Assembly (NCBI GenBank): GCA_903876795.1
Contig: CAIRBK010000050.1
Coordinates: 1-64,000, forward strand
DNA: 64,000 nt
DNA from: an uncultured Verrucomicrobiota bacterium
GTDB taxonomy: Bacteria > Verrucomicrobiota > Verrucomicrobiia > Opitutales > Opitutaceae
Direction: 5' to 3'
Part shown: positions 2,510 to 63,008 of the stretch, piece by piece
How the letters are laid out: every line of letters starts with the position of its first letter
Numbering within the stretch: the first letter of the stretch is position 1
The notes under the pieces: model-generated
Databases searched by the model: none
Seen by the model: only the letters and a program-made list of their open reading frames with translations
Told to the model about the DNA's origin: nothing
Made by a program: the position numbers and the translations under genes

Positions 2510-2510
2510 A

Positions 2511-3575: not shown

Positions 3576-3684
3576 AAAGGAAGTGCATCAAACCCGAGTT
3601 CCGCCCGCGCACAAGGCTGCGGCTCTGGAAAATCAGCCTGTATTTCCACTTTCCACGCCGCGCCCACACTGGGACGGGATCCGA

Positions 3685-3860
3685 CTACATGCCCGGCCGC
3701 GGATTGGACGCGCCGGCCTGCGGTGTTTCCAGCGTGAGGCTCATGAGCGCCATGCCGCCGGCCGCATAGGGCTCGTTCACATAGACTTCGTTGCCACGCT
3801 GCACCAGAGCGAGGCCGTCCCAGACCCACGTCTCCCACTTCGGCGATGGAGCCGCCCCTG
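3685..3860 (-). pseudogene. Fragment resembling an Rhs/YD-repeat core end, fused to the broken TIR gene
   Basis: On the minus strand an open frame ends at 3685 with the peptide WETWVWDGLALVQRGNEVYV followed by NEPYAAGGM. The pattern W-x-x-W-x-W-D-G-L-A-L-x-Q-R-G-x-x-x-x-x-N-E-P resembles the end of the Rhs/YD-repeat core from verrucomicrobia as I remember it; this is pattern recognition, not a search. It is unlike the TPR sequence before it and lies in a third frame relative to the upstream TIR gene. I read it as a remnant of an unrelated Rhs-type gene joined to the truncated 3' end of the TIR array. Confidence 0.5.
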
Positions 3861-12292: not shown

Positions 12293-15200
12293 TTACAGCG
12301 GAGCGGAGTTGGCCGGGTCGTCCAGGAGTGCTTGGAAGCGAGGGTCGGCGCGCAGGTTGTCCCACGCGGGATCGACGCGGAGCATGGGCACAGTGAGGCC
12401 GGAGGGCTCGCGGAGGATTTTCGCAATCAGGGTGAGGGCGGCGTCGGTTTCGCCGAGATAAGCGAGGAGCTCGGCCTGTGCACTTACGAGCCGGAATCCT
12501 CGTAAACCTGCGCCGTTTACTTGATTGGAATACACGGTGATTTCGCGCAAGGCCTCGGCTTTGCGGCCGACGCGGGCCAAGGCGATCGCGCGGCGTAGGC
12601 CTTGTTGAGGAACTCCGATCTCGGGCAAGCCGTCCAATTCCTTGGTGAGGGAGAGAAGCTCCTTAAACGCCGCCTCCGCTTCGGTGGTGCGCCCGAGCCG
12701 GGAGAGAGCTTCGCCGCGCGCATGGAGCAACGTCCATCGATGGAGTGCGCCCAGTTTGGGGGTTGAGAGGGCTTGCTCGACCAGCGTTGGCACCTTTTCC
12801 CAAGCGCGGGCGCGACTAAGCCAGAGGACCGCGACGGGAGGCGCAAACTGGGCGGTGTTGGCGGGCAAGGCCCCGAAATATTGAAAGTCAATCTCCGCAA
12901 GATTCGGTTCAAACCCGCGCGCACGCATTTCGGTCAGTGCCTGGCGATGGGCCTCGATCCCTTTTAAGCGAGCCAGAAGCAAGAGGTAATTCTGCCAATA
13001 GACGGGGCGATAAGGATCGAGCGAAATAGCCTTTTTTATGGCGATGATAGCCTCTTTTTCTCGACCCATCCAGTTACGATTAAGGGCAAGAAAATTATAG
13101 GCCCATGATTCATTCGGTAATGCCCGAATAATGTTTTCGATGTAGCGATCCGCCTTATCGAAATCGCGTTCGATGTTGTTGTAGTAGGCCGCCAAACCGT
13201 GGTCCCCTGCCCCGCCCGGCATCAGTTCTGCGGCACGTTCGGCCCATTTTTTACAGGCCCGAGCAAGGGCGACGCGTTCGACTGGATCGCCGGACTGGCG
13301 GGCAGCGACTTCCAGGGCATTAGCGTAAAGTGCGGCGGCGGACGCAAAATTGGGATCCAGGGACAGCGACTTTTCGAGTTTGCTGAAAATGGCCTCCCAA
13401 TCGGAGCGCTCGATACGGTTAAAGAGCGCGAAGGCAGCGAGGAACTCCTCATAGGCTTGTGGATTTGCCGAGGTAAATCGGGCATTCACAAACGAGCCCT
13501 TGGTGGCGCGAGCTTGCAGGACGCGGGCGACCTCGGCGGCGATTTCGGACTGGATGGCGAAGACGTCTTTGAGGTCGCGGTCGAAGGTCTGGGACCAAAG
13601 GAGGGCATCGTCGCGGGCACGGCGCAGTTCCAGGGCGATGCGCAGGCGGTCGCCGGCGCGGCGCACGGAGCCGGTGACGAGGTTGGCCACGCCGAGTTTG
13701 GCGGCGATTTCGGGCGGGGGGAGCGGGGAATTCTTGAAGGCAAGGGCGGAGCCTCGGGAGACGACGCGTAGGTCGGGGATGCGGCCGAGGGTGGCGATGA
13801 TCTCGGAGTGCATGCCCTCGGTGAAAAACGCGTTCTCGGGATCGGGGCTGAGGTTCTCCAGCGGCAGTACTGCGAGGGACTTGTCGTCGGGCGCGGTGGC
13901 AGGCGGCATTGCGGACGCCTGAGCGGCGGGGGACGGGGGCGGTGCCAAGAGGGCCTTGATCTCGGCATCGTCGCGCCAAGGCATCATGGCAGGATCGAGT
14001 CGAAGATGGTTGCGCAGCAACTCGCGGGACCAGGGATGGACGGATGCCTCCCGCAGCAGGGTCAGGGCCTGCTCGCGGGCATCCATCTGCAAGAGGATAA
14101 AGGCCTCGTTGAGTAAGGATGGATTGGTGCCCGCGATGCGAAAAGGACGGGGTGCCGATTCGTAGAGCAAGGCCGCGCGGGCACGGGCCTCGCCGCGTCT
14201 TCCCAGCCGCAGCAAAGTCCACGCTTCGGGCAAAAGGACATCGGCCTGGGGGTCGCGGGCTTTTTCGCGGGCGATCTCGATCAAGGCGGCTTCATACTCC
14301 CGCCGGGACAGCTCCGGCTTGCCCTGCCAGGCTAGCAGGTCGCCGATTAACATACGCTTGGGAATGAGGCTGAAATCGCGCAACCAATCGCCGGGAAAGG
14401 CCCGCAAGGCCTGCAACCCCGCCTCCCACTGGCCGGTGGCGCGGGCATAGAAATAAAGCTCGCGGACAGGCCGGTCGGTCAGACGGAAATCGGCCGGCAA
14501 CAAGTCCAATAACCGCTTGGCCTCGGCGGCGTCTCCGTGACGAAGCAACATCAACCGGGCCTTGGCCAGCAAGGCGGCGGAGACCGGCCCGACGGCCAAG
14601 GTTTCGTCCAAGGCGGTTTCATACTCATCCAAACTTGATCGCATCGACACCAGCACGAGGGCCACCTGATAGCGCATCAGCGCGTCGTCGGGGAAGCGCT
14701 GGCTCGCCTCGCGGGCCAGCTTGAGCGCCCGTTCGGGCTGTTCCGTCCGCAAAAAATAAACCAGTGCCTGATGATAGCGTGAACGATCCGGCTGCAGTTT
14801 GATCGCCTGCTCCAGAAGTGTAACCGCGCGCGCAGGATCGGCGTTGCGGAAGGTCAGGTTCCAACCGAGGGCGTAGAGCGCCTCGGGATGATCGGGGGCG
14901 AGTTTGAGCGCGCGCTCGCTCCAGCTTCGCGCCTGCTTGAAACGCTCCTCTGTCCGGTCAAAGCCGCGGTTGATAAAGGTGTTATTGATGAGGGCGCAGA
15001 CGATCACGGCTTCCGGGTCATTGGGGCGCAGAGCCAGCGTTTTATTGGCCAACTCCTCGGCCAGCCGACAATCCTCCCGCGTTCCGTTAAGCGCCTCGAT
15101 CAGGGCCATTGCCTGCCGCAGATCGGCATCGCGGGGGAACTGCGCAGCCTTGTCCAACGATGTGGCCGCGTGGCTCTTCGCGACCGACACGCCCGGCGGG

Positions 15201-15799
15201 TTGGTCGACGCAGAACCGGATATCCCGAGCCATGCCCATGCGGCCACGCCCGCGCAGGCCAAGGCTCCCGCGATGAGCGACCAGCGCCTGGCCAAGCGTC
15301 CGCGCGCCGGAGCGGTCAACCCGCCCGCCGAGGGCGCGGAGTCTCGGGAGCGAATGTCCGCCGGAGCACCGTCCAGCAAAGAGCGCACCCGGGAGCAGAA
15401 CGCCGGCGACGCCTCCCCGCCCGGCAGGCGCGTCCACTGCACGGCCTTGAACTCCGCAGGCGCCAGGGCTTCCCCGTCTTTTGTGCCGTCGATCACCACG
15501 GGCAGGAGAAAAGGCGTGCCGTCGGCCATCGCGTGCGTGCGCTGCGCGGCGAGTTTCCACTCGATACGGAAATACCCTTCCCGCCGCGCCTGCGTCGCCG
15601 CCGATATCACGGGGATGAAGAGCGCGCACTCGGCAATCTGGCGGCGGATCTTCGCGTCCCAAGCATCGCCGCCCACCAGCTCGTTTTGATCAAACCACAC
15701 CTCGACGCCGGCCGCTCGCAGGGCGGCGACGAGCGCGCGCGCCGCCGCAGCGTCCTGCGACGCGTAGCTGAGGAAAACGGCGTGGGTTGCTTGGGTCAT
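12293..15799 (-). CDS. TIR-TM-TPR-TolB-TPR receptor, long form
   Basis: 1168 residues from the ATG giving MTQATHAVFLSYASQD; the frame is open 8 codons further, but alignment with paralogues favours this start. TIR about 6-143 with Glu80 in GYFRIEWKLA and FDQNELVGGDAWD; membrane helix about 173-193; first TPR block about 215-625; TolB-like domain about 650-770 (SLAVLPLENLSPDPENAFF, GSVRRAGDRLRIALEL, DVFAIQSEIAAEVARVLQA); second TPR block to the C-terminus, which ends LRADPRFQALLDDP. Its TolB domain is nearly identical to that of the broken gene at 3.9-6.5 kb, while the flanking TPRs differ. Hairpin repeats flank it on both sides, so it is probably its own transcription unit. Inferred role: sensor with TIR effector output at the inner membrane. 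Confidence 0.9.
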   Translation of the reverse strand: MTQATHAVFLSYASQDAAAARALVAALRAAGVEVWFDQNELVGGDAWDAKIRRQIAECALFIPVISAATQARREGYFRIEWKLAAQRTHAMADGTPFLLPVVIDGTKDGEALAPAEFKAVQWTRLPGGEASPAFCSRVRSLLDGAPADIRSRDSAPSAGGLTAPARGRLARRWSLIAGALACAGVAAWAWLGISGSASTNPPGVSVAKSHAATSLDKAAQFPRDADLRQAMALIEALNGTREDCRLAEELANKTLALRPNDPEAVIVCALINNTFINRGFDRTEERFKQARSWSERALKLAPDHPEALYALGWNLTFRNADPARAVTLLEQAIKLQPDRSRYHQALVYFLRTEQPERALKLAREASQRFPDDALMRYQVALVLVSMRSSLDEYETALDETLAVGPVSAALLAKARLMLLRHGDAAEAKRLLDLLPADFRLTDRPVRELYFYARATGQWEAGLQALRAFPGDWLRDFSLIPKRMLIGDLLAWQGKPELSRREYEAALIEIAREKARDPQADVLLPEAWTLLRLGRRGEARARAALLYESAPRPFRIAGTNPSLLNEAFILLQMDAREQALTLLREASVHPWSRELLRNHLRLDPAMMPWRDDAEIKALLAPPPSPAAQASAMPPATAPDDKSLAVLPLENLSPDPENAFFTEGMHSEIIATLGRIPDLRVVSRGSALAFKNSPLPPPEIAAKLGVANLVTGSVRRAGDRLRIALELRRARDDALLWSQTFDRDLKDVFAIQSEIAAEVARVLQARATKGSFVNARFTSANPQAYEEFLAAFALFNRIERSDWEAIFSKLEKSLSLDPNFASAAALYANALEVAARQSGDPVERVALARACKKWAERAAELMPGGAGDHGLAAYYNNIERDFDKADRYIENIIRALPNESWAYNFLALNRNWMGREKEAIIAIKKAISLDPYRPVYWQNYLLLLARLKGIEAHRQALTEMRARGFEPNLAEIDFQYFGALPANTAQFAPPVAVLWLSRARAWEKVPTLVEQALSTPKLGALHRWTLLHARGEALSRLGRTTEAEAAFKELLSLTKELDGLPEIGVPQQGLRRAIALARVGRKAEALREITVYSNQVNGAGLRGFRLVSAQAELLAYLGETDAALTLIAKILREPSGLTVPMLRVDPAWDNLRADPRFQALLDDPANSAPL

Positions 15800-15838
15800 G
15801 TTAAAAGACCTCAGAGAGTACAAAGTCGGCAGGGCTGG

Positions 15839-15958
15839 TTTTTTTGCGCTCTTTGCGCTCTTTGCGTTCTTTGCGGTTAAATCGGTTTGGGAGATCGGAA
15901 ATTAGGGCAGTCAGAAGAGCCGAAGAATTAACCGCAAAGAGCGCAAAGAACGCAGAGA
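15839..15958. repeat. CGCAAAGA hairpin element, copy B
   Basis: Left arm 15839-15880 carries four TTTGCG-type units and ends TTTGCGGTTAA. Right arm 15928-15958 begins TTAACCGCAAAGAGCGCAAA. The 47-nt loop starts AAATCGGTTTGGGAGATCGGA. It lies between a TIR gene and an ATPase gene. Confidence 0.85.
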
Positions 15959-15983
15959 AAGAGTAAATGGCGGTGCTCATGGG

Positions 15984-17111
15984 TTAGTTTATCTCGTCCA
16001 AACCAGTTACTGCGATTTCCATGCCTGCGACGTGTTTTACGTAGGCGCGATCCACGCCCGGACTCACCAGGTAGTTTTTCCCTTCGGGATAGGCGGATCG
16101 AAACACCTTGAGCGCCGAGGGATCGAAGGCGGCGGGGTCCCATTTGCATTCGTAGGCATCCACTGCGTCGCGCGCCCGCGGACGCACGAAATCCACTTCG
16201 TGCCCGGCCTTGTCCCGCCAGTAACGCACCGTCTCATCCGGCCACTGCGCCTGAAAGGCCTCCAGCACCAGATGCTCCCACAACACACCCCGGTCGCTCG
16301 GGCGCAGCGGGTCCCAGCCATGCGCGAAACTCACGAAACCGGTGTCGAAGGCATAGGCCTTGGGCTGGCGCACGAGCTCGCCCTGCCCTCCGCCGTGAAA
16401 GGGGTGCACGAGGGTCAGCGCCTGGGTGATTTCCAGCGCCTGCAGATGGCTGTCCACCGTGGCGCGGGCGATGCCCAAAGCGGTCGCGGTGCGCGAGGTT
16501 TCCAACTGCCCGCCGCTCTGGCGCAGCACATATTCGAAGAGCGCGTTGAAGCGGTTGATGTCGCGAAACCCAAACAGCCGCTGGATGTCGCGCGCGAAAA
16601 ACGAATCGAGCCACTCCCGGTAAAAACCCGGCTCCTTCCGCCCCGCGAGCAAGGCCGGGGGCAGCCCGCCGTGATAAAGCCGCTTCTCCAGCGTCGCGCC
16701 AAACGCCCCCAGCTCCCCCGTGAGCACGGGCACTAAGCGGAGCTGGCGCTTCCGCCCGGTCAGGGTATCGCGGAACTTCTTGCTCGCCGCGAGGGTGGAC
16801 GACCCGGTGGCCAGCACGCGCAATTCGGGGAATTCATCCGCCGCGATCTTGAGCACCCGACTCGGGTCGCTCAGTTGGTGAATCTCATCAAACGCCACCA
16901 CCGGCCGGTCGCAGTTTTTGAAAAACAACACCGGGTCGCGCAGCCTGTCCTCCGTCGCCGGCAGGTCGCAGTTGACCACCAGGCAACGGTCTTCCCCGAG
17001 GCTCTGCGCCAGGGTGGTTTTGCCCGAACGCCGTACCCCGGCGAGCCACACTATCGGAGCCTGTTGCCACGCCTGCTCCAGTCGTTGTTGCCAAAAGGGT
17101 CGGGTAATCAT
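15984..17111 (-). CDS. AAA_14 / DUF4143 family ATPase
   Basis: 375 residues. The N-terminal P-loop is GVRRSGKTT (about 25-33), followed by the Walker B-like VVAFDEIHQL and the sensor-like LATGSSTL. These are typical of the AAA_14 ATPase that heads DUF4143 proteins. A winged-helix-like stretch follows (RTATALGIARATVDSHLQAL). The C-terminal DUF4143 part has a PD-(D/E)XK-like pattern, HEVDFV then YECKW. Biochemical function is not established for the family. It stands alone between hairpin repeats inside the TIR array. The AT content rises just upstream of the start, with a CATACT...AGTATG inverted pair. A second family member lies at 22.2-23.3 kb. It may be an island passenger rather than part of the TIR system. 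Confidence 0.88.
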   Translation of the reverse strand: MITRPFWQQRLEQAWQQAPIVWLAGVRRSGKTTLAQSLGEDRCLVVNCDLPATEDRLRDPVLFFKNCDRPVVAFDEIHQLSDPSRVLKIAADEFPELRVLATGSSTLAASKKFRDTLTGRKRQLRLVPVLTGELGAFGATLEKRLYHGGLPPALLAGRKEPGFYREWLDSFFARDIQRLFGFRDINRFNALFEYVLRQSGGQLETSRTATALGIARATVDSHLQALEITQALTLVHPFHGGGQGELVRQPKAYAFDTGFVSFAHGWDPLRPSDRGVLWEHLVLEAFQAQWPDETVRYWRDKAGHEVDFVRPRARDAVDAYECKWDPAAFDPSALKVFRSAYPEGKNYLVSPGVDRAYVKHVAGMEIAVTGLDEIN

Positions 17112-17116
17112 GTCGT

Positions 17117-17153
17117 CATACTAATCAAATAATCTGACTTTTTGTAAAGTATG
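17117..17153 (-). promoter_or_regulatory. AT-rich upstream region with short inverted repeat, possible operator
   Basis: Immediately upstream of the ATPase start, CATACT (17117-17122) and AGTATG (17148-17153) are inverted across 25 AT-rich bases. The placement matches the better repeat found upstream of the second ATPase. A TTTACA-like element lies inside it, but no well-spaced -10 was found. Confidence 0.35.
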
Positions 17154-17252
17154 GTTGCGTGATGCCTGCAGAGTCGCCCTGCCGCCGCCGCGTGCTGTGT
17201 GCCGCGAGACGTGGGAAAGAAATAGGGCGGGTGATGATGAGGTCATTGGCTT

Positions 17253-17450
17253 TACCGCAGAGAACGCAAAGAGCGCAGAGAGCGGAAGGTTCGGGTCTTT
17301 GTGCGCTCTGCGTTCTTTGTGGTTAAATGGGTTTGACGGTTCGTGGGTTCGGAAGTCGGAGAAATTAACCGCAGAGATCGCAGAGATCGCAGAGATCGCA
17401 GAGAACGGAGGGATCGGTTTCTTTGCGCTCTTTGCGTTCTTTGCGGTTAA
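17253..17450. repeat. CGCAAAGA hairpin element, copy C (four arms)
   Basis: Four arms alternate: 17253-17281 (ACCGCAGAGAACGCAAAGAG), 17298-17326 (reverse orientation), 17364-17407 and 17420-17450 (reverse). The third arm contains consecutive CGCAGAGAT units in tandem. The sequence between arms two and three reads AAATGGGTTTGACGGTTCGT then GGGTTCGGA, matching copy D closely. The block accounts for most of the 373-bp gap between the ATPase gene and the next TIR gene; no coding sequence was seen in the gap. Confidence 0.85.
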
Positions 17451-17484
17451 AAACGGTTTGGAAGATCGGAGGCATCGGTGGGAA

Positions 17485-19848
17485 TCATGGGTCCACGGGG
17501 TCAGGCAGGCTGGCGGAGTGTTGCTCGGCCAGGCGCACCCAGGCTTGGAAACGCGGGTCGCCCCGTAGCGAGGCGAAGCGGGGGTTCCAGCGCAGGTCGA
17601 GCGAGGGGATAACTCCGGTGGACCAGACTTTTTCGAGCAGAGACAGAGCCGCCTCGTTCTGCCCGGTGGTGGCTAGCAATCCCGCCACTCGGGTGTGAGG
17701 GTTGACATCCAGCGCCGATTGGTTGGATGCGATGCTTTGCGACAAATCGTTAAGCAAGGCACGCGCCCGGTCGGTATGTCCGACGAGGTGTTCGAGCTGA
17801 ATTATATTGGCCAGCACGACACGGGCTTGGTTGCCGGCCGCATAACGTGAGTTTAACAACTCCAAGGTTTCCTTGGCCTGATCGGGAACTGAACCAAGCG
17901 CGGTGCAAAGGTCGAGCCAGCCACCGCCCGACCAGTGGGGGCTATCCGTCATGATGGAGGAGGGACGCTCAAGGGCTTGAGCAAAGGCCAGGCGGGCCTC
18001 CTCATCACGCCCCAACCAGTGGTGGAGACGGCCTCTAAGCGCCGGGCTGGCGGGGTGCGCCGGTGCGATGCGCTCCAGCAGAGCCAACGCCGAGGCGGGA
18101 CCACGCCAGCGGAGTCGGTTATCAATCAGATTGGTGAGACCTGGAGTTTCATCCGCATCGCCGAGACGCACGGCGCGCAGAAAGAGCGCCTCTGCCTTGG
18201 GATAAGCACCGGTGTTCCGCGCAAAATTCCCGTAGTTGTTTATCCAAGTGCGATTTTGTGGATCGAGCCGGAGCAAGGCTTCGCCATGTTGGTTAAAAAT
18301 GGCGATTGCGGTCGCGATCCTTGGCTCGAACTCGGCGAGGGCGATTTGCCCGGCGGACCAGCGGATGTCTTCGAGGCCGAGGGAGCGGGCTTGTGCCAGG
18401 AGTTTGGTGGCGGTGGCTGCGTCACGATCCACTGAGGCTGCGAGCAATGCGGCGACATACAGCACATCGGGCGAGGCGGGTTGCAGGGCTTGGGCGCGGG
18501 CCAGGGCCTCTTTGATCAGGGCCAGGCGTTGCGGACTATTGTCGCGTCCGCCGCGATACGCCCCCAAAGCCGCCTCGGCCAGACTGGCCCAAGCTAGAGC
18601 AAAATCCGGTGCGAGGGTGACCGCTTCACGAAAGTGGGCGATGGCCTTTTCCTGGCCCTGGCCGCTGACCGCAAGCGCCCGCCCCCGCAGGTAGGCGTCG
18701 TAGGCGGCGGGGTTGGCGGTGAGCTGGACGGGGCCGGTGGCGGTGGCGGTGCGGCGGGTGATTTTTTCGAGCACGGCGCGGGCGACTTCGTCCTGCAGGG
18801 CAAAGACATCGGTGAGCTGACGGTCAAAGGAGCCGAGGTTTTCGGCAAAGCCATCGGCGGCGCGGATGAGCTGGACGGTAATGCGCACGCGGTCACCCGC
18901 CCGGCGCACGGACCCCTCGACCAGGCGGGCGACGCCGAGGGTGCGGGCGATCTCGGTGAGCGGGACGTTTTTACCCTTGAAGGAAAACGCCGAGGTGCGG
19001 GCGATGACGCGCAGGTCTTTTTCGCGGGAAAGCACGTTGAGGATCTCCTCGGTGAGACCATCGGAAAAGTATTCCTGCGCCGGGTCGCCGGAGAGGTTGG
19101 CAAAGGGCAGGACGGCGAGGGATTTGACGTCGAGCGTGGGTGTGGCCGCGGCAGCCTCGGGCGCAGGCACCGAGGTGGACAGCGGCGCTACGGCGGCGAC
19201 TGCGCCGCCGGGGGCGGACGCCGGTCTCAGCCAGAAAAGCAAAGCCGCCCCGAGCGCTACGCCGCCGAGGGCCAGACCGGCGAGCAGTAGCCGCCGTGGC
19301 GGCACCTGGCGGACCGACGCGGCGGGCGGGACGCCCACCGCAGCCCCCGGGACGGGGGCGCTCCCCGGACCTTCGGACAGCGGAGCCGACACAGCCGCCG
19401 CAGTCGCCCCCAGGAGCTTCGCCACCCGTGCGCAGAACTTCTCCGCATTTTCCCCGCCGGGCAGGCGCGTCCACTGCACGGCCTTAAACTCCGGCGGGAC
19501 CAGTGCCTCGGCGTCGCGGGTCGCGTCGATCACCACGGGCAACAGAAACGGCGTGCCGTCGGCCATCGTGTGGGTGCGCTGCGCCGCCAGTTTCCACTCC
19601 AAGCGGAAATACCCCTCCCGCCGCGCCTGGGTTGCCGCCGAAATCACCGGCACGAATAACGCACACGCGGCGATCTGGCTGCGGATCTTGGCGTCCCACG
19701 CGTCGCCGCCGGCCAACTCGTTTTGATCAAACCACACCTCCATACCCGCCGCGCGCAACGCTCCGACGATGCGCTGCGCCGCCTCCGCGTCTTGCGACGC
19801 GTAGCTGAGGAAGACGGCTTTGTTCGTGGAGCTACTCATGGTCGTCAC
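17485..19848 (-). CDS. TIR-TM-TolB-TPR receptor, short form
   Basis: 787 residues from a GTG that overlaps the upstream stop (GTGA); an ATG three codons later gives MSSSTNKAVFLSYASQD and is an alternative start. TIR about 11-147 with putative catalytic Glu84 in GYFRLEWKLA; an Ala/Pro linker; membrane helix about 186-207 (LLLAGLALGGVALGAALLFW); TolB-like domain about 243-360 (SLAVLPFANLSGDPAQEYF, LVEGSVRRAGDRVRITVQLI); TPR half about 375-770 ending LRGDPRFQAWV and SLPDPVDP. Linker and membrane helix are almost the same as in the gene at 23.5-25.9 kb, although the TPR halves differ. It is the last gene of a coupled set of ATPase plus two TIR genes. Confidence 0.9.
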   Translation of the reverse strand: MTTMSSSTNKAVFLSYASQDAEAAQRIVGALRAAGMEVWFDQNELAGGDAWDAKIRSQIAACALFVPVISAATQARREGYFRLEWKLAAQRTHTMADGTPFLLPVVIDATRDAEALVPPEFKAVQWTRLPGGENAEKFCARVAKLLGATAAAVSAPLSEGPGSAPVPGAAVGVPPAASVRQVPPRRLLLAGLALGGVALGAALLFWLRPASAPGGAVAAVAPLSTSVPAPEAAAATPTLDVKSLAVLPFANLSGDPAQEYFSDGLTEEILNVLSREKDLRVIARTSAFSFKGKNVPLTEIARTLGVARLVEGSVRRAGDRVRITVQLIRAADGFAENLGSFDRQLTDVFALQDEVARAVLEKITRRTATATGPVQLTANPAAYDAYLRGRALAVSGQGQEKAIAHFREAVTLAPDFALAWASLAEAALGAYRGGRDNSPQRLALIKEALARAQALQPASPDVLYVAALLAASVDRDAATATKLLAQARSLGLEDIRWSAGQIALAEFEPRIATAIAIFNQHGEALLRLDPQNRTWINNYGNFARNTGAYPKAEALFLRAVRLGDADETPGLTNLIDNRLRWRGPASALALLERIAPAHPASPALRGRLHHWLGRDEEARLAFAQALERPSSIMTDSPHWSGGGWLDLCTALGSVPDQAKETLELLNSRYAAGNQARVVLANIIQLEHLVGHTDRARALLNDLSQSIASNQSALDVNPHTRVAGLLATTGQNEAALSLLEKVWSTGVIPSLDLRWNPRFASLRGDPRFQAWVRLAEQHSASLPDPVDP

Positions 19849-22199
19849 AACGGCGAGGTGTTTTTCGGATCATCCAGTAGTGCTTGGAAACCTGCATCTT
19901 CGCGGACGTTGTCCCACGCCGGATCGGCCTTGAGCATGGGCACCGTCAGCCCCCAGGGTACGCGGAGGAGTTTGGCGAGCAGCTCGACGCAGTCATGCGG
20001 GCGGTTGAGGTAGGCATGGAGTTCGGCGAGCTCGCGTTCACGTTCGGAGAGCAGCCGAGGAGCGAGGTTCCGAACGACATCGAGATGCCGCCGCGCGGCG
20101 CTTACCGCCTCGTCCGCCCGGCCCAAACGAGACAGAGCTAGCGCCTGCCAGCCGTTTTTTTGCGAGGGGCCGACCTCGGCGATTTCGGCCAGTTTTTGCA
20201 CGAGAGACATCAGAGCCGCAGCCGATTGGCCGGCAGCCTCCGTGCGACCGAGTTTTTGCAAACCGTCCGTCTGGTAGCGCAGAAAGATCAGGCGATTGAG
20301 GTCTTGGGTTGCAGATTTGCCAAGCTCAGCTTCCGCGAGCGCGACCACGTCGGCCACGCGGCGCGCGCGCCAGAGCCAGCCGATCCGCTCGGCGGCGGCC
20401 ATGCCATCGAGTGCGGAGGGGATCTCGCCGAAGAGCGCAAATTGCCATTCGGGGTTATCTGTTCCCCGCGTGGATGCGTGGTATCGGGCTTTTTCCTCCT
20501 GAAACGCACCCACGCGGCGAAGCCTGACCAGACTCCCAAGATAGTTGGACCAGTAAACGGGCCTGAGCGGATCAAGGGTGATCGCGCGACGCCAGGCTGA
20601 CAGCGCTTCCTTCTCCTGGCCCATTGCATCGGAAAAAATGCCCACGTAATTATAACCCGTGGCTTCGTTGGGCAGGGCTCGCACCACATTCTGAGCATAC
20701 GTCAATCCACGGGCGTAATCCCGGGACGCCTGGCCATAGTATGATGCCAGCCCGTAGTCGCCCGCACCTCCCGGGGCCAAGCGGGAGCCCGTTTCTGCCC
20801 ACCGTTTTGATTCCGCGGCATAGCGCAGGCGCGTGACGGGGTCTTTATCATTGCGGTAGGCGAACCAATTCGAGGTGGCCAGCAAAGTGGCCGCCCCCGC
20901 AAACGCCGGGTCCAGAGACATGGCCTGTTCGGCCTGCTCAATGACTGCCACATACGGCGAAGGGCTGGCACTGTATCCAGGCGGGACTGAATTGAACAAC
21001 GCGAGCGCACGGAGAAAACAATCATACGCCCGGGGATTCTGCGTGGTGAAGCGCCCCAGCAAAAAACTGCCCGTCGCCAGGCGCGCCTGGAGCACCCTGG
21101 CCACCTGCTCGGCGATCTCACTTTGCAAGGTAAGCACGTCCTGCAAATCGCGGTCGCCCTTCGGCAGCGACCACAGCAGCGCCTCGTCGCTCGCGCGGCG
21201 AAGCTCCAGCTGGATGCGGACCTTGTCGTTGGCCCGGCGCACGCTGCCGGTGATCACGTTGGCGACGCCGAGTTTTTGCGCGATCTCCGCCAGCGATGCG
21301 TTGGCGCCCTTGAACGCGAGCGCCGAGCTGCGCGAGATGACTTTCAAATCGGCGATTTGCGTGAGCGTGGAAATGATCTCCGCGTGTATGCCTTCGGTAA
21401 AATAAGCGTTGTCCGGATCGGGGCTGAGGTTTTCAAGCGGGAGAACAACCAGGGATTTTTCGCTCACCGCCGGCTCCGCCGTCGAAGCCGCCCGGCTTGC
21501 CTGTGCCGCTGCGGCGGCGGGACCGGCGACAGGCGGCGATGCCGGATCTAAGCCAACTGCACCGGGTGTTCCCACCGGGGACACCGGTTCCCCGGCGGGC
21601 GGACGCAGCACGAAGAATACACCACCGACGAGCGCGGCCCCCGCAAAGACCCAGGGCCAGGCATGAACGTGCGGCTTGCGCGGTGCAGATGGGATGTGGT
21701 CGGGCGCTGAGGGATCCACGCGCGCAGCCTGCCCGCGTGCGTACTTCCCAGTACCGCCGCCCAGCACTTGCTTCACGCGCGCGCAAAAGGCCGGCGTGGC
21801 CTCGCCGCCCGGCAGGCGCGTCCACTGCACGGCTTTGAACTCCTCGGGGACCAAAGCTTCGCCATCGCGAGTGGTGTCAATAACCACGGGTAAAAGGAAG
21901 GGCGTGCCGCGAGCCATCATGTGCGTGCGTTGAGCCGCGATGTTCCATTCCAACCGGAAATACCCTTCCCGCCGCGCCTGCGTCGCCGCCGAGATTACCG
22001 GCACGAACAAGGCGCACGCGGCGATCTGGCCACGGATCTTCGCATCCCAGGCATCACCGCCGACCAGCTCGTTTTGGTCAAACCACACCTCGACGCCGGC
22101 CGCACGCAGCGCAGCGACCAGCGCGCGCGCCGCCTCCGCGTCTTGTGACGCGTAGCTGAGAAAGACGGCAGCGGTGGCGGCGTTGGCGGGAGAGTTCAT
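19845..22199 (-). CDS. TIR-TM-TolB-TPR receptor, short form
   Basis: 784 residues. TIR about 11-147 with Glu84 in GYFRLEWNIA (a small change from the usual EWKLA); FDQNELVGGDAWD; membrane helix about 181-198 (WPWVFAGAALVGGVFFVL); a Pro/Ala linker; TolB-like domain about 247-365 (SLVVLPLENLSPDPDNAYF, VITGSVRRANDKVRIQLEL); TPR half with repeated Ala-rich helices, ending REDAGFQALLDDP. Downstream it overlaps the next TIR gene by GTGA. Upstream it overlaps the DUF4143 ATPase stop by ATGA, so in this unit an ATPase and two receptors are translationally linked. Inferred function as for the other array members. Confidence 0.9.
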   Translation of the reverse strand: MNSPANAATAAVFLSYASQDAEAARALVAALRAAGVEVWFDQNELVGGDAWDAKIRGQIAACALFVPVISAATQARREGYFRLEWNIAAQRTHMMARGTPFLLPVVIDTTRDGEALVPEEFKAVQWTRLPGGEATPAFCARVKQVLGGGTGKYARGQAARVDPSAPDHIPSAPRKPHVHAWPWVFAGAALVGGVFFVLRPPAGEPVSPVGTPGAVGLDPASPPVAGPAAAAAQASRAASTAEPAVSEKSLVVLPLENLSPDPDNAYFTEGIHAEIISTLTQIADLKVISRSSALAFKGANASLAEIAQKLGVANVITGSVRRANDKVRIQLELRRASDEALLWSLPKGDRDLQDVLTLQSEIAEQVARVLQARLATGSFLLGRFTTQNPRAYDCFLRALALFNSVPPGYSASPSPYVAVIEQAEQAMSLDPAFAGAATLLATSNWFAYRNDKDPVTRLRYAAESKRWAETGSRLAPGGAGDYGLASYYGQASRDYARGLTYAQNVVRALPNEATGYNYVGIFSDAMGQEKEALSAWRRAITLDPLRPVYWSNYLGSLVRLRRVGAFQEEKARYHASTRGTDNPEWQFALFGEIPSALDGMAAAERIGWLWRARRVADVVALAEAELGKSATQDLNRLIFLRYQTDGLQKLGRTEAAGQSAAALMSLVQKLAEIAEVGPSQKNGWQALALSRLGRADEAVSAARRHLDVVRNLAPRLLSERERELAELHAYLNRPHDCVELLAKLLRVPWGLTVPMLKADPAWDNVREDAGFQALLDDPKNTSPL

Positions 22200-23347
22200 C
22201 CTGTTTCCTTACCAAGGATTTCTAAAAGTCCGGACAAAGACGCGAGCCCGCTTTGGCCATTAAAAACCGTGTCCTTCACCTGGGCTACCAGCACCCGGCG
22301 ATCGGCTCCGATGAGCTCGGCCGCCTTGTTGAAGCGCGCAAACTCGGCCTCGCCCGGGTTGGACGTGAGTTTGACTTCCACCGCCCAGAGACGGCTGTCC
22401 AGTTGGAAGACCAAATCCACTTCGTAGCCGTCCGTCGTGCGAAAATAGTGCGGCGTCACCACCTTGCCCCGCGCCGCCAGCCATTCGACGACCTGGCCGA
22501 TGACAAACCCCTCCCAACTGGCCCCGACCCAAGCTTGGTTGAGCAGTGCATCCGCGTTGTTGATACCGAGCAAGGCATGCAACAGACCGGTATCCCGCCA
22601 ATAAACGCGCGGGGAGCGGATGAGGCGTTTTTTAAGATTGGGCAACCACGGGGGCAGCCGCCGGAGCAGGAAGGCCCCCTCCAGAAAATCCAGGTAACTG
22701 TTCACCGTGTGGTAACTCAGGCCAAGACTTTGCCCGATCTGGCTGGCGTTCCAAATCTGCCCGTGCACGGCGGCCGTCATGCGCAGAAAACGCTCCGTGA
22801 CCGCCGGTTTGGCCGGCAGCCCCCACGTCGGCAGGTCGCGTTGCGCCAGCAAGGTCAGGTAGTCGAGCTGCCACTGCGGGAAACGTCCGCCCCCCGTCGC
22901 GCCGCCTTCGGGAAAGCCGCCCAAAAGCCAGCGTTCGGCCAAAGGCAGGTCGGGCAGTTCGGCGCTTAACAACGGTGCCAGTTCGATGAGCGCGAGCCGA
23001 CCCGCGAGCGACTCGGATACTTCCCGCATGAGCGCCGGCGACACGGAACCGAGCAGCAAAAAGCGCCCGGTGCGTGTTCGGTCGGCATCGATCGCCCCGC
23101 GCAAGCGCGGAAACACCTCGGGCCACGCCTGCGCCTCGTCGAGCACGACCAGGCCGGATCGCCCCATCAAGGCGTCCCATTGCAAATCCAACCGCAGGCG
23201 CTCGGCCGGTAGCTCAAGGTCAAAATACAACGAAGAAAGCGCCCGCGCGAGGGTCGTCTTTCCCGCCTGCCGCGGCCCCACCAAGCCTGCCGCCGGGTAA
23301 TCCGCCAACCTCGCCGCCACTAAAGACTGAATCGTTCGTGTGATCAT
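22196..23347 (-). CDS. AAA_14 / DUF4143 family ATPase, first gene of a TIR unit
   Basis: 383 residues from the ATG giving MITRTIQSLVAARLADYPAA; the frame is open 16 codons further, but those codons cross the inverted repeat upstream. The P-loop GPRQAGKTTLA is the classic family form. GLVVLDEAQAWPE is Walker B and LLLGSVSPALM is sensor-like. The winged-helix-like stretch includes ASQIGQSLGLSYHTVNSYLD. The DUF4143 end has YEVDLVF and WAVEVKL, a PD-(D/E)XK-like pattern, and closes with VFNGQSGLASLSGLLE. Its stop overlaps the ATG of the following TIR gene (ATGA), so it is built into the TIR operon rather than merely nearby. Activity is unknown for the family. Confidence 0.88.
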   Translation of the reverse strand: MITRTIQSLVAARLADYPAAGLVGPRQAGKTTLARALSSLYFDLELPAERLRLDLQWDALMGRSGLVVLDEAQAWPEVFPRLRGAIDADRTRTGRFLLLGSVSPALMREVSESLAGRLALIELAPLLSAELPDLPLAERWLLGGFPEGGATGGGRFPQWQLDYLTLLAQRDLPTWGLPAKPAVTERFLRMTAAVHGQIWNASQIGQSLGLSYHTVNSYLDFLEGAFLLRRLPPWLPNLKKRLIRSPRVYWRDTGLLHALLGINNADALLNQAWVGASWEGFVIGQVVEWLAARGKVVTPHYFRTTDGYEVDLVFQLDSRLWAVEVKLTSNPGEAEFARFNKAAELIGADRRVLVAQVKDTVFNGQSGLASLSGLLEILGKETG

Positions 23348-23348
23348 A

Positions 23349-23380
23349 TTGCTAAATAGAATATGGTTTCTGTTTAGCAA
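23349..23380 (-). promoter_or_regulatory. Perfect 8-bp inverted repeat at the ATPase start, possible operator
   Basis: TTGCTAAA (23349-23356) and TTTAGCAA (23373-23380) are a perfect inverted pair 16 nt apart, directly upstream of the DUF4143 gene start in the most AT-rich stretch of the island. Symmetry and position fit an operator for self-regulation, or a terminal repeat left by insertion of the ATPase gene. Neither can be shown from sequence alone. Confidence 0.5.
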
Positions 23381-23399
23381 AAAAAATGCTGACAACGTA

Positions 23400-23504
23400 A
23401 TTCAGGGTCCCCGCCGCGCGGAGGGAAGCCCGACGCGCGCGCCGTCTCCGCGTCCGGCGATGCGTGGCTGAGGAAAACAGGTTGAGAGATAGGGACGTGT
23501 TCAT
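23400..23504 (-). pseudogene. Vestigial TIR N-terminus (remnant of a ninth receptor)
   Basis: An ATG at 23504-23502 overlaps the upstream TIR gene stop (ATGA), exactly as at every intact junction. After a one-base frame slip the sequence reads VFLSHASPDAETARA, which aligns with the conserved VFLSYASQDAEAARA opening of the receptors. Homology then stops within about 100 bp, before the AT-rich region that leads into the DUF4143 gene. It looks like a receptor gene cut off near its start by insertion or deletion. Confidence 0.75.
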
Positions 23505-25858
23505 GGATCGACGGGATCGGGCAGGCTGGCGACGCGGGCCTCTTGCTCGCGGCAGATCGCCTCGAAGCGCGGGTTGCCGCGCAGCGGGGCGAGGAGCGGG
23601 TCGGAGCCTACCCCGTAGCCGCTGATCGTCGGGGAGAAGATTTTTGAGCTTACCACCGACTCCAGCGAGACGAGCGCCGATTCTGAATCTCCCAACTGCG
23701 CATAAAAGATAGTTTTTCTCGGTAAAACGATTCTGGGGGCGTCTTGGCCGACAGCGGACGCAGTGGGTTGCCATTCCTTGAGCAGTGCCCGGGCGCGCTC
23801 CGTCTGACCACGGATGATCTCCACTTGGATCAACGTGCCGAGCACGTTGCCCGCCCGGTCGCCCGCGTCGTAGCGTTGGCTGGCTTGAGCGTAAACGTGG
23901 TCCATCAAGGTGCGCAGATCCGCCGTAGCGCCGGCCAAGTGGGCCTCCAGCCAACCACGGGTGGACCAAATATTGCTTTCGAGGGCAAAAGTCTCGCCCA
24001 GCGCGGGCAACACTTCGATGTAGGCGGCCCGCGCCTCGGCCAGTTGGCCGGTGCGAACCCAGGAACGGGCCAGCAAGTAGCGCCGGTGGATAGGGGAAAT
24101 CTCCAGACGGCGAGCCAAGGCTTCGGCCGCCGCCGGACCACGCCAAGACAAGCGGTTTTGCCAGAGATTTTGCAACGGGCCGACGATGTTTCCGGGGTCC
24201 AGTTTCAAGGCGCGGGCGTAGTAAACCTCGGACTCAGGAAAGCGGCTCGCCGCAACCGCATCCCGCCCAGCTGCGTTAAGTAAGTTGGCATTGAGGGGAT
24301 CGAGATCGACGGCCCTACGGTAAAGTCCGTTGCTGGCGACCAAGTCCATTTGAACGCTCGCAAAGTCTGCCCGCAGAGTGAGGACAGACGCGTGATCACG
24401 GCCTAGGATGGCTTCGGCCTCGGCCATGCAGCGTTCGGCCCGCGCCAAGTCCCCCTGACCTAAAAGAAAGCGAGCTTCGGCGAGATGGGCTTCAGGCAGC
24501 GTGGGGCGCAACTGGCGGGCGCGCACAAGAGCGTGGGCGATTTCATCCACTTGGACCGAAGTGCGGCTCAGCCCGCTTAACCGAATGCGAGCCAAGGCGT
24601 CGGCCAGGGCAGCCCACGCGGGGGCGAAGTCGGGGTCAAGGCTGGTGGCTTGGCGGAACTGCGCGACGGCTTCTCGCAATAAGGTAAGGTTGCGGCGGAG
24701 GAGCTGGAGACCCTTGGTGTAGTCCTCGTAGGCGGCGAGGTTGGCGGTGGGCGCGGGCACGGCCTTCTGGGTGTCGCCGCGGTCGAGACGGGCGGCGACC
24801 TTTTGGGCGATCTCGGACTGGATGGCAAAGATGTCGGTCAATTCGCGGTCAAAGGTCTCGGACCAGAGCTGGGTGTCGTTGGGCGCGTCGATGAGGCGGG
24901 CGGAGATGCGCAGGCGGGAACCGGCGCGGCGCACACTGCCGTCGATGACCATGGCGACGTTGAGTTCGCGGGCGATCTGCGGCAGCCCGAGGTTTTTGCC
25001 CTTCAACGCGAAGGAGGAGGTGCGCCCGATCACGCGCAGGCCGCGATTGAGGGCGAGGCGATCAAGGATTTCCTCGGTGATGCCATCGGAAAAATACTCC
25101 TGCCCGGCATCGCCGCTGAGGTTGGCAAACGGCAGGACCACGATGCGGATGCCCTCCTTCGCGGCCACAGCGGAGGCCGATGCGGCGGGCGGAGGCACCG
25201 AGGAGGACAGCGGCGCGGCGGCAGCGACTGCGCCGCCGGGGACGGGCGCCGGACGCAGCCAGAAGAGCAAAGCCACGCCGAGCGCCACAACACCGAGCAA
25301 CAGACCGGCGAGCAGGAGCCGCGGGGGCGGCATCCGGAGGGCAGAAGCGGCGGGCGGGACGCCCGCCGCAGCCCCCGGGACGGGGGCGCTCCCCGGACCT
25401 TCGGACAGCGGAGCCGACACAGCCGCCCCCAAGAGCTTCGCCACCCGCAAGCAGAACTTCTCCGCATTTTCCCCGCCCGGCAGGCGAGTCCATTGGACGG
25501 CACGGAACTCCGGCGGGGCATCCGCTTCGGCATCACGGGTCGTGTCGATGACCACAGGGAGGAGAAAGGCGGTCCGCTCCGACATCATGTGTGAGCGCTG
25601 GGCAGCCAGTTTCCACTCCAGCCGGAAATACCCCTCTCGGCGCGCTTGGGTATTGGCCGAAATCACCGGGATAAACAGCGCACACGAACTGATCTGCCCA
25701 CGGATCTTCGCATCCCACGCGTCGCCGCCGGCCAGCTCGGCCTGGTCGAACCACACCTCGACGCCGGCCGCGCGCAACGCCTCGACGAGGGCGCGCGCCG
25801 CCTCGGCGTCTTGCGACGCGTAGCTAAGAAATACAGCTTTGGCTTCGGCGGTTTTCAT
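23501..25858 (-). CDS. TIR-TM-TolB-TPR receptor, short form
   Basis: 785 residues from the ATG giving MKTAEAKAVFLSYASQD. The frame is open 87 codons upstream, but that part is shadow sequence in the neighbouring gene, and this ATG makes the ATGA overlap seen throughout the array. TIR about 7-145 with Glu81 in GYFRLEWKLA; linker SAPLSEGPGSAPVPGAA; membrane helix about 181-201; TolB-like domain about 236-355 (IVVLPFANLSGDAGQEYF, VIDGSVRRAGSRLRISARLI, DIFAIQSEIAQKVAARL); TPR half ending PLRGNPRFEAI and SLPDPVDP. It shares linker, membrane helix and C-terminal tail with the gene at 17.5-19.8 kb. Downstream it runs into the vestigial TIR start. Confidence 0.9.
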   Translation of the reverse strand: MKTAEAKAVFLSYASQDAEAARALVEALRAAGVEVWFDQAELAGGDAWDAKIRGQISSCALFIPVISANTQARREGYFRLEWKLAAQRSHMMSERTAFLLPVVIDTTRDAEADAPPEFRAVQWTRLPGGENAEKFCLRVAKLLGAAVSAPLSEGPGSAPVPGAAAGVPPAASALRMPPPRLLLAGLLLGVVALGVALLFWLRPAPVPGGAVAAAAPLSSSVPPPAASASAVAAKEGIRIVVLPFANLSGDAGQEYFSDGITEEILDRLALNRGLRVIGRTSSFALKGKNLGLPQIARELNVAMVIDGSVRRAGSRLRISARLIDAPNDTQLWSETFDRELTDIFAIQSEIAQKVAARLDRGDTQKAVPAPTANLAAYEDYTKGLQLLRRNLTLLREAVAQFRQATSLDPDFAPAWAALADALARIRLSGLSRTSVQVDEIAHALVRARQLRPTLPEAHLAEARFLLGQGDLARAERCMAEAEAILGRDHASVLTLRADFASVQMDLVASNGLYRRAVDLDPLNANLLNAAGRDAVAASRFPESEVYYARALKLDPGNIVGPLQNLWQNRLSWRGPAAAEALARRLEISPIHRRYLLARSWVRTGQLAEARAAYIEVLPALGETFALESNIWSTRGWLEAHLAGATADLRTLMDHVYAQASQRYDAGDRAGNVLGTLIQVEIIRGQTERARALLKEWQPTASAVGQDAPRIVLPRKTIFYAQLGDSESALVSLESVVSSKIFSPTISGYGVGSDPLLAPLRGNPRFEAICREQEARVASLPDPVDP

Positions 25859-28398: not shown

Positions 28399-29136
28399 TT
28401 AACCGAGTAATTCCCGCAGGCGGCGCAGAAAGTCCGGGGTGGGTTCGGCGCCGGGCAGGCGGGTCAAGTGGTTTTGCAGGAACTTGGCCGGGACCAGCGC
28501 CTCGGCCTTGGGGGTGGCGTCAACGCAGACGGGCAGTATGTAGGCCGCGCCCTCGGCCATGCCGCGGGTGCGGTCCACCGCCCACGACCACTCTCGGCGG
28601 AAGTAGCCCTCGACGTGGCGCTGGGTGGCGGCGGAGATGACCGGGATGAAGAAGGAGCAGCGGGCGATGTTGCGCTGGATCTTGCGGTCGAAATCGTCGC
28701 CGCCCTCCCGGCGGTCGAGGTCGTACCAGGTGGCGATGCCGGCGGCGTCGAAGGCGGCCTTGAGCCGCTGAACGGCGGGCAGATCGTCGCGGGTGTAGCT
28801 GATGAACCCGGCGCGGGCGGGCTTCTCGCGGGCGGGCGGCAGGAAACGACGCGGATCGGCGGCGAGGCCGAACGATGCTGCCTGGGCAGGCTCGTTGAGG
28901 GTGGCCTCGGGCGGCAGTTCCTCCAACGGGATGCCGCAGCGGGCGGCTAGAAGCGGGGCGAGCCAGGCGTGCAGGTTCCGGGGGCCGGCTTCGGTCTCAA
29001 CGACGAGCAATTCGGAACCGATGACGGGGATGACTTTCCGTTCCTCGATGTGGTTGAGCAGGTCGTCCCGTGGGTCGTCATCGAAAAGTCCGGTGACAAT
29101 TTCAGGGTGCTGTATCGACGTTGAGGAGGCGAACAT
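28399..29136 (-). CDS. Short SIR2-like/TIR protein
   Basis: 245 residues from the ATG giving MFASSTSIQHPEIVTGLFDD; start uncertain (the frame is open 14 codons further). Residues about 20-100 (LLNHIEERKVIPVIGSELLV then NLHAWLAPLLAARCGIP) resemble the first part of the SIR2-like domain that precedes TIR in some bacterial proteins. That domain is cut short: after RRFLPPAREKPARAGF the TIR begins (about 107-240; FISYTRDD, YDLDRREGGDDFDRKI, Glu in GYFRREWSWA). The TIR is clearly different from the array TIRs. There is no membrane helix and no TPR. It is likely a defence-type NADase; the shortened first domain suggests an internal deletion or a minimal variant. Confidence 0.75.
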   Translation of the reverse strand: MFASSTSIQHPEIVTGLFDDDPRDDLLNHIEERKVIPVIGSELLVVETEAGPRNLHAWLAPLLAARCGIPLEELPPEATLNEPAQAASFGLAADPRRFLPPAREKPARAGFISYTRDDLPAVQRLKAAFDAAGIATWYDLDRREGGDDFDRKIQRNIARCSFFIPVISAATQRHVEGYFRREWSWAVDRTRGMAEGAAYILPVCVDATPKAEALVPAKFLQNHLTRLPGAEPTPDFLRRLRELLG

Positions 29137-29615
29137 AGGCTGGGCTTTCACGGAGCATGAGCCCGCGCAGCACAGCAAAAATCACGCCGCAGAAGTCGGG
29201 CAATGGGGAGTGTTTGCGAAATGTCACCATGACCGGGTCCAGGATGACAAAGACGGCAAGGGGAGGAGACGTCCGCCCGGACGCTTGAATTTAGTTCAAT
29301 AAACCCGAAAGCTGCAGGCGGACCGGGTCGTCCCGCATGAACTGTTGGTCGCCTGCCGATCGCGACACCCGCTGCAAGCGTCCAACGCGCATATGGGCAT
29401 CGCGCGCGAGGCGATGGCCCGGCCGGTCATTCGCCGGCGCTCGCCGCCGCGGGTTTGTTGCCTGGTTGATAGGCCACTGTTGCGGCGGCATTCGCGTGAG
29501 CCACTTGGCTCAACTGCGGATTTTAGGATCAAACCCGGGTGAGCGGGCGGTAAAGGCGACCAAATGCCTTGCCAGTCCCCGGGGCTGCTGGCAGCGGTTT
29601 CGGAACGTATTCACC
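29137..29615. other. 479-bp divergent intergenic region without recognised gene
   Basis: The region lies between the minus-strand SIR2-like/TIR gene and the plus-strand SLOG gene, so it should carry both promoters, but no convincing -35/-10 pair was found. A 66-residue minus-strand frame (29291-29491) is open; its peptide matches nothing I recognise. AT content rises only around 29288-29310. Confidence 0.5.
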
Positions 29616-62250: not shown

Positions 62251-62263
62251 GGTAACCGTGCGG

Positions 62264-63008
62264 TCAGGCCGAAGGCGGAATCGCTTCGGAAAAAAAGTCG
62301 ATGACGATGGCCGTGGCATTGTCTCGGCCGCCGCGGACATTCGCAACATGGATGAGGGCCTGCGCGAAGCCGAGCGGGCTGGGCTGGGCGACGCTCAGGG
62401 CGGCGAGGTCGGTGGTGTCGAGGGCGCAGGTGACGCCGTCGCTGCAAAGGATGATGCGGTCGCCCGGCGACACGGCGACGCGATGGGTTTCGCAGGAGAG
62501 AGGGGCCGACTGGCCGAGGTAGCGGTCGAGCGTGGCCGGCGGTAGAAAACCGGCGGCGGGCGCGAGACCGACGACCACGACGGGGGGCGGGGCTGGTGTG
62601 CTCCGTGGTGAGGCGCACGACTTCGCCGGCGCGGCCGCGTTGAATGAAGGCGGCGCTGTCGCCGACGTGGGCGATTTCGCAGCATCCGGGGCCGATGCGC
62701 AGGAGCGTGAGCGTGGTGCCGATGCCCATGTGCCGGTGGATCACGCGGCCGAGCTGGCCGACGGCGTCGTGGCAGGCGGCGACGAGTTCGGCGAGCGGGC
62801 GGCCGGGATCGGCGGGCGGCGTGGCCTGCCGGATAAGACTGCGGATGGCGCATTCGCTGGCGCGTTCGCCGTAGGGCAGGCCGCCGATGCCGTCGGCGAT
62901 GGCGAACAGGCCGCGGGGGACGTCGAGGAGGTAGCGGTCCTCGTTGGTTGCGCGCATGCGGCCCACGGTGGTGGCGGCCCCGGCGGAGGTTTGAACGGCG
63001 GAGTTCAA
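62264..63008 (-). pseudogene. PP2C-type Ser/Thr phosphatase, frameshifted as sequenced
   Basis: A TTG start overlaps the upstream stop (TTGA). The first frame gives GRMRATNEDRYLLDVPRGLF, AIADGIGGLPYGERASE and IAHVGDSAAFIQRGRAGEVV as far as RLTTEHTSPAP. The second frame then continues LAPAAGFLPPATLDRYLGQS, SPGDRIILCSDGVTCALD and RGGRDNATAIVIDFF. All PP2C metal motifs are present across the two frames. The shift falls in a run of six G on the plus strand (62582-62587), where five would keep the frame. That makes a sequencing indel likely, so the gene may well be intact. Expected product about 245 residues, cytoplasmic. It lies between a receiver gene and the phytochrome gene, suggesting a phosphorylation branch in the same pathway. 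Confidence 0.85.

Follow-up and report, generated by a model that had tools for sequence, protein, structure and literature searches.

In the TIR gene array examined here, a truncated and frame-shifted 5' end of a TIR gene (REM1) lies directly upstream of an ATPase gene, and comparable stubs recur ahead of related ATPase genes in other genomes. The array belongs to an uncultured Opitutaceae bacterium and was studied within what we call the window, namely the whole 64,000-nucleotide stretch of DNA that was analysed. With a probability of roughly 55%, we favour the explanation that REM1 is the scar of a TIR gene truncated when a unit composed of operator, ATPase gene and TIR gene start entered by one-sided recombination, which would have re-headed the TIR gene lying downstream.

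A truncated TIR gene start upstream of ATPase 1

The features around REM1 are the following:

23501..25858, minus strand: intact TIR-TPR gene, whose stop overlaps the REM1 ATG
23410..23504, minus strand: REM1, TIR gene 5' stub, whose ATG overlaps the previous stop; homologous as far as about codon 30, with two net frame changes
23349..23381, minus strand: ATPase 1 palindrome (TTTGCTAAACAG...TTTAGCAA), 1 bp ahead of the ATPase 1 ATG
22196..23347, minus strand: ATPase 1, AAA_14 + DUF4143 (PDC-S01), 383 aa, whose stop overlaps the next TIR ATG (ATGA)
19845..22199, minus strand: intact TIR-TPR gene T22199, directly after ATPase 1

The TCAT at positions 23501-23504 holds the TGA stop (23503-23501) of the TIR gene whose ATG is at 25858, overlapping the minus-strand ATG at 23504. 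The original prediction had read this place as a vestigial ninth TIR gene, entered through a normal ATGA junction, recognisable out of frame with the ATG and losing its homology ahead of the DUF4143 gene, and each of these points was borne out by the analysis. Specifically, VFLSHASPDAETARA does read out of frame with the ATG at 23504; it is followed by SLRAAG, previously overlooked, which is back in the ATG frame, so that the REM1 homology extends to 23410 with two net frame changes and ends 62 bp ahead of the ATPase 1 ATG (23347). The array comprises 8 intact genes of the TIR-TPR kind and, at 28399-29178, one more TIR gene, hence 'ninth' fits the count of the former kind.

Tested as the remnant of a TIR gene (TIR_2, PF13676), REM1 proved homologous at the DNA level, beyond chance, to the start of TIR genes. 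TIR 5' DNA is recognisable over about 70 bp, the best match being 57/71 identical in a DNA alignment against the intact array members carried out with slightly different penalties. Local DNA alignments against the 8 intact TIR genes gave scores of 32 to 70, compared to shuffle maxima of 24-30; the best was obtained with T28161, for which the score of 70 compares to a maximum of 28 in 300 dinucleotide shuffles. In addition, nhmmer with a model made of the 8 TIR genes returned REM1 at 25.8 bits (E=4.7e-8 for 64 kb), ranking first below the 9 real TIR domains in the scan of the whole window.

A complete TIR domain with the catalytic glutamate is absent from REM1, whose homology stops at about codon 30, and its two net frame changes leave the stub without an open reading frame. 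The glutamate in question is that of frLEW, at HMM position 79, a putative catalytic residue so assigned on the basis of a known motif and of a loose alignment to 7uxr. REM1 is best read as a dead scar rather than a working gene: a TIR-TPR receptor gene cut short near its start, which has kept its ATGA overlap with the preceding gene and has since drifted through substitutions and indels.

A probable second, more decayed stub around ATPase 2

A similar layout was found around the second ATPase gene of the array:

17420..17470, minus strand: left copy of a direct repeat (48/51), bracketing REM2 and ATPase 2
17164..17246, minus strand: REM2, probable second and more decayed TIR 5' stub (MTSSSPALFLSHVS... 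from an ATG), upstream of ATPase 2
17112..17153, minus strand: conserved element directly ahead of the ATPase 2 ATG; imperfect inverted repeat
15984..17111, minus strand: ATPase 2, AAA_14 + DUF4143 (PDC-S01), 375 aa
15969..15980, minus strand: possible third stub, ATGAGCACCGCC after the ATPase 2 stop; 12 bases, short
15850..15899, minus strand: right copy of the direct repeat, upstream of the intact TIR gene starting at 15799
12293..15799, minus strand: intact TIR-TPR gene, after ATPase 2

REM2 is the next-best match after REM1 in the whole-window nhmmer scan (17245-17180 on the minus strand, 7.4 bits, E=0.017). With a broader profile it reaches 4.7 bits, which is above all of the 545 shuffled regions (maximum 3.9) and below the 6-bit line used for the relatives. 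REM2 is graded as a probable TIR stub. The ATGAGCACCGCC stretch is identical to the intact TIR start that follows the ATPase 2 of G611, a protein 89% identical to ATPase 2 of the window, and as a third stub it is suggestive only. The 17-nt core of the repeat bracketing REM2 and ATPase 2 has just two occurrences in the genome. Copies of a dispersed palindromic repeat (TTAACCGCAAAGAACGCAAAGAGCG...) also occupy the array intergenic gaps around ATPase 2, at 17120-17470 and 15830-15960.

The ATPases and their start-codon elements

Both ATPases match the PADLOC profile PDC-S01, with E=1.5e-81 for ATPase 1 and 8.4e-49 for ATPase 2. With regard to a putative PD-(D/E)XK-like domain fused to the AAA ATPase, alignment indicated invariant E309/D311 and nearly invariant E324 and K326, and the start Met of ATPase 1 is nearly invariant among 24 aligned proteins. 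An AlphaFold2 model of ATPase 1 (mean pLDDT 89) found its best PDB similarity in the Pyrococcus abyssi ATPase 2qen, and Foldseek retrieved AAA/STAND ATPases, together with the Can2 nuclease at a low TM-score. As matches to a PADLOC candidate, ATPases 1 and 2 are candidate anti-phage genes. Elsewhere, G000 carries a second, degenerate ATPase-1-like gene (G000:C15:1336-1938, locus L036), remote from TIR genes, with an N-terminal part 62% identical and the middle missing.

Each ATPase type (A1, A2) carries its own distinct element against the start codon. The A1 palindrome, TTGCAAAATAGAAA...TTTCTA...TGCAA, is present in Opitutaceae, Acidobacteriota, Planctomycetota, Myxococcota and others; in a test for inverted repeats, 8/10 Opitutaceae and 14/28 other A1 upstream regions outscored 99 or more of 100 shuffles. 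In the same test the A2 element, conserved and an imperfect inverted repeat, scored in 0/8 Opitutaceae and 2/3 distant regions. No match to the A1 operator near the training scores was found elsewhere in the arrays, where it might have marked a regulator of TIR genes, by a matrix trained on the same sites, and no second operator copy stands beside the ATPases in the arrays scanned.

On the downstream side, the ATPase stop overlaps an ATG as ATGA in 8/9 A1 loci, and in 5/5 A2 loci an ATG follows 3-7 nt past the ATPase stop. An intact TIR gene starts within about 190 bp downstream of nearly every array ATPase. In G108 and G598, a repeat comes after the ATG at the ATPase stop and the intact TIR gene begins slightly later.

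TIR stubs recur upstream of ATPases in relatives

TIR genes of the window's kind were detected in 22/387 genomes of the phylum sample, 17 of which (own genome included) belong to the window's family. The ATPases are patchy as well, with the A1 type in 10/252 and the A2 type in 8/252 family genomes; close relatives of ATPase 1 are 75-84% identical in 9 others and those of ATPase 2 are 79-89% identical in 7 others, several of these genomes being Opitutaceae MAGs. Among the A1-type ATPases in loci L136-L187, L159 and L181, both from Opitutae/Opitutaceae, were the only ones with a TIR context.

The ATPase is immediately preceded by a TIR 5' stub in G442, G496, G598, G578, G185, G528, G603 and the Lacunisphaera contig L181. 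The roughly 400 bp ahead of every start were scanned uniformly, with a threshold of 6 bits, above the maximum of 3.9 bits reached by 545 shuffled regions; the G578 stub, spotted by eye, scored 7.9 bits. The ATPase set leaves aside L117 (N-terminus outside the model) and L123-L127, and includes L181, added by hand, whose contig ends inside the gene. Stubs above 6 bits were found upstream of 9/17 ATPases (6/10 A1-type, 3/7 A2-type), compared to 6/80 TIR genes not following an ATPase and 1/12 following one. Fisher's test gave p=5.0e-5 for 9/17 vs 6/80 and p=3.8e-5 against 7/92, values that overstate independence because the genomes are related. The stub-then-ATPase arrangement looks like the usual scar of how such ATPase genes sit in TIR arrays.

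The association is not absolute, as 8/17 ATPases have no upstream stub above 6 bits. In G606 and G611 a complete TIR gene and no stub precedes the ATPase, in G190 a non-TIR gene does so, and both G190 and G473 are without an upstream TIR gene, the operator element being present. Conversely, stubs lie upstream of intact TIR genes with no ATPase in G152 (two) and in G598. A further variant is found at locus L116 of G578. Here a short stub comes first, then an A2 operator lacking its ATPase, a small gene that matches antitoxins weakly (E about 0.002, under the curated cut-offs) and a PIN-domain gene (E=4.2e-16), the stop of which forms an ATGA overlap with the following TIR gene. The TIR gene of this locus (1839-4427) encodes an 862-aa product in which, judged by eye, formylglycine-enzyme-like and hydrolase-like stretches appear to stand in place of the TPR part.

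These data bear on two broader claims of the original prediction. That the arrays change by insertion and deletion is well illustrated by the G578 locus, which keeps a stub and a leftover ATPase operator and has a PIN-domain gene pair in the same slot. The proposal that REM1 records the loss of a receptor, perhaps upon ATPase entry, holds as far as the link to the ATPase is concerned (9/17 vs 6/80), while a net loss is unsupported, with the G152 and G598 stubs occurring without an ATPase. The intact TIR start found so close behind nearly every array ATPase implies that the event may have re-headed, rather than removed, a gene.

Stub ends fall at about codons 16, 20, 30, 39, 39, 41, 46 and 72 (by protein or DNA profile), and the G598 fragment reaches 74. 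These differing end points show that the stubs do not descend from a single junction. Even so, the TIR homology that can be aligned gives out 39-85 bp (mostly 50-76) ahead of the ATPase ATG, on the border of the conserved operator region, and all stubs stop short of TIR HMM position 79, the putative catalytic glutamate. Two readings fit this shortness: the cuts may fall preferentially where homology is shared among TIR genes, or orphan TIR domains of greater length may be harmful.

The array site in the same genus

A TIR protein match was obtained in 0/12 same-genus genomes searched. In the window the array is flanked by terC (2511-3575) and lnt (31244-32950), and the corresponding regions were compared in 10 of the 11 relatives with an lnt match (all except G006). 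In 3/10 of them (G010, G011 and G009) terC and lnt are neighbours, 165-285 bp apart by tblastn edges, so the array of about 27 kb is missing entire where both flanks are visible; in the other 7/10, terC was not found in the stretch examined, some of these being short contigs. Since the whole array is missing where the flanks are visible, the comparison with close relatives suggested by the original prediction cannot reveal an intact receptor at this site, and none of the genomes searched has this array in an ATPase-free form.

Origin of the stubs

From the shared architecture, the enrichment of stubs ahead of ATPases and the conserved ATPase/TIR junction we infer the following route and order of events, for which the varied stub ends and the patchy presence of the ATPases also speak. 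DNA carrying operator, ATPase and TIR start would recombine into a resident TIR array, its right side anchored by homology in the conserved TIR domain and its left side joined at a non-homologous point within the resident TIR 5' region, which would leave a stub upstream and a re-headed intact TIR gene downstream. The incoming unit would start, together with the palindrome, roughly 50-60 bp before the ATPase ATG and extend as far as the ATGA that it shares with the following TIR gene.

If transfer is confined to the TIR 5' part, ectodomains should not be shared within an ATPase type, as was observed: 0/11 best matches of the TIR ectodomains after ATPases were shared between loci of the same type, a result that rejects co-transfer of the ATPase with a specific downstream ectodomain. 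Against the favoured recombination, the mosaic predicted for the TIR 5' ends is only weakly seen, with a mean identity of 0.730 within A1 followers vs a background of 0.683-0.690; these are ungapped identities with no significance figure, and the second segment is unreliable owing to indels. Also counting against it, 6/11 post-ATPase ectodomains find their best match within the set across types (reached in 20/5000 permutations); without same-genome matches this becomes 4/11 (reached in 507/5000), so that the excess is slight and mostly within-genome. The stubs without any ATPase in G152 and G598 and the 8/17 ATPases without a stub above 6 bits count against it too.

The main rival is plain deletion, the version of the original prediction, in which a ninth TIR gene stood at this place and all but its first 30 codons were removed before, during or after ATPase entry. 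It accounts for the truncated TIR 5' ends that precede intact TIR genes without an ATPase in G152 and G598, and REM1 is not specially close to the downstream TIR gene (rank 4/8), as expected for a separate gene. However, random deletions should give fragments of all lengths, while every stub ends before TIR HMM position 79, and the intact post-ATPase proteins listed run to 625-1166 aa, unlike the short stubs; moreover, independent deletions ending exactly at the ATGA junction would be needed in most A1 loci (8/9). We regard plain deletion as possible and rather doubtful.

A broader proposal is that PDC-S01 genes are mobile cassettes, made of palindrome and ATPase, which repeatedly seat at TIR gene starts in Opitutaceae arrays and leave stubs cut before the catalytic glutamate, with the slot being reused as in G578. 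The cut would be tolerated only before that residue because an orphan active TIR domain would be toxic. Target-site duplications or terminal repeats flanking all copies, as expected of a mobile element with defined ends, were not found: unique flanking direct repeats occur at 2 loci only, with a repeat-family match at G577. We regard this proposal as speculative and unlikely. Apparent tRNA 3' fragments (38-bp match) flanking an ATPase 2 relative in G500 resembled attachment sites, a reading that was set aside; ARAGORN found no intact tRNA in the stretch. These tRNA-like fragments lie at about 8034-8090 and 9479-9516 of L123, with no TIR gene near the ATPase.

Target-site duplication would mean that nothing was lost: the ATPase would have inserted at the start of the downstream TIR gene, whose own 5' end, once duplicated, forms the stub. 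The direct repeats point in this direction: in the window, 48/51 repeats with a core unique to this pair in the genome flank the REM2-ATPase 2 segment, and in G108 the direct repeats on either side of ATPase 1 are 113/124 identical, with a loop that has just two occurrences in the genome. A stub made in this way should resemble the gene behind it; instead, the stub finds its best match in the downstream TIR gene in just 1/7 cases (ranks 4/8, 5/8, 2/4, 3/3, 1/5, 2/3 and 2/3; the G152a row is void, its query overlapping the intact gene, and G152b was not used), and in G496, where about 200 bp can be aligned, that gene comes last of 3. Target-site duplication is thus disfavoured as a general rule and, for REM1, improbable. 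The two ATPase segments bracketed by unique direct repeats (window and G108) nevertheless indicate that repeat-driven rearrangement is part of the story. A similar dispersed repeat, reading PAFAKATARQ when translated, joins the TIR stubs right after YAS in G152, G185 and G598.

A functional leader, in which the stub is a short translated frame coupling ATPase translation to the upstream TIR operon, appears very improbable. It would explain why the ATGA junction to the previous gene is retained and why, in G185, G528 and G603, the stub frames stay open across the operator in one register and close about 14 nt ahead of the ATPase ATG, although for the A2 frames of G185 and G603 a single junction may have been inherited. 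REM1 shifts frame twice and G442 has a frameshift, and the ATPases of G606, G611 and G190, which have no stub, together with the operator retained in G190 and G473 without an upstream TIR gene, indicate that the stub is not a required leader. Finally, chance resemblance of REM1 to TIR DNA, conceivable for a short stretch in a high-GC genome, is refuted by the score of 70 vs a shuffle maximum of 28, by E=4.7e-8 and by the recurrence in relatives.

Relation to known systems

TIR domains serve as effectors in several anti-phage systems, such as Thoeris ThsB, CBASS TIR proteins and TIR proteins associated with short Argonautes. The array TIR_2 domain resembles them, with weak PADLOC matches to Aga_TIR, SAVED-TIR and ThsB, and its solved relatives include the AbTIR NAD+ hydrolase. 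It differs in being fused to a TPR-containing C-terminal part within an 8-gene array, and the PADLOC matches span the TIR part only.

In the available portion of PMC12988326, PDC-S01 is described as an ATPase fused to PD-(D/E)XK, the fourth most common defence candidate across prokaryotes, with validation pending for most PDC systems. Both array ATPases match its profile and carry AAA_14 + DUF4143; what sets them apart is their location inside TIR arrays, with TIR stubs upstream and a TIR start downstream, and a start-codon palindrome that the same portion of PMC12988326 does not mention. The TIR stub-ATPase arrangement was not found in the literature on DUF4143, COG1373 and PDC-S01, in a search that mostly stopped short of full texts.

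As a truncated, frame-shifted 5' end in a tandem array, REM1 resembles the pseudogenes and fragments of tandem arrays in general, from which it differs in that the cut recurs ahead of one partner gene type, within the first ~75 codons and before the putative catalytic glutamate. The REM1 scar itself is minor; what deserves follow-up is the recurrence of the stub-ATPase architecture, together with the PDC-S01 palindrome. The recurrence connects two poorly understood entities, the TIR-TPR arrays and the PDC-S01 system, still unvalidated according to the portion of PMC12988326 available. The A1 palindrome, kept at the PDC-S01 start codon across several phyla, raises the question of whether the ATPase binds or controls its own gene, and the pattern of stub lengths raises that of selection against orphan TIR domains.

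Other features of the window

The TIR gene at the array head (28399-29178, minus strand) encodes 259 aa, with only about 125 residues ahead of the TIR domain. Its relative in G108 (L075:9815-11254) is 479 aa long and has a SIR2_2 domain; of this SIR2-like part, the gene in the window has apparently lost most. A SLATT_1 (2TM effector) gene (29337-31100, plus strand) separates the TIR array from lnt, in the stretch missing from the three relatives. The right half of the window contains very long reading frames of 1997 and 1550 aa, at 50650-56643 (plus strand) and 57697-62349 (minus strand), respectively.
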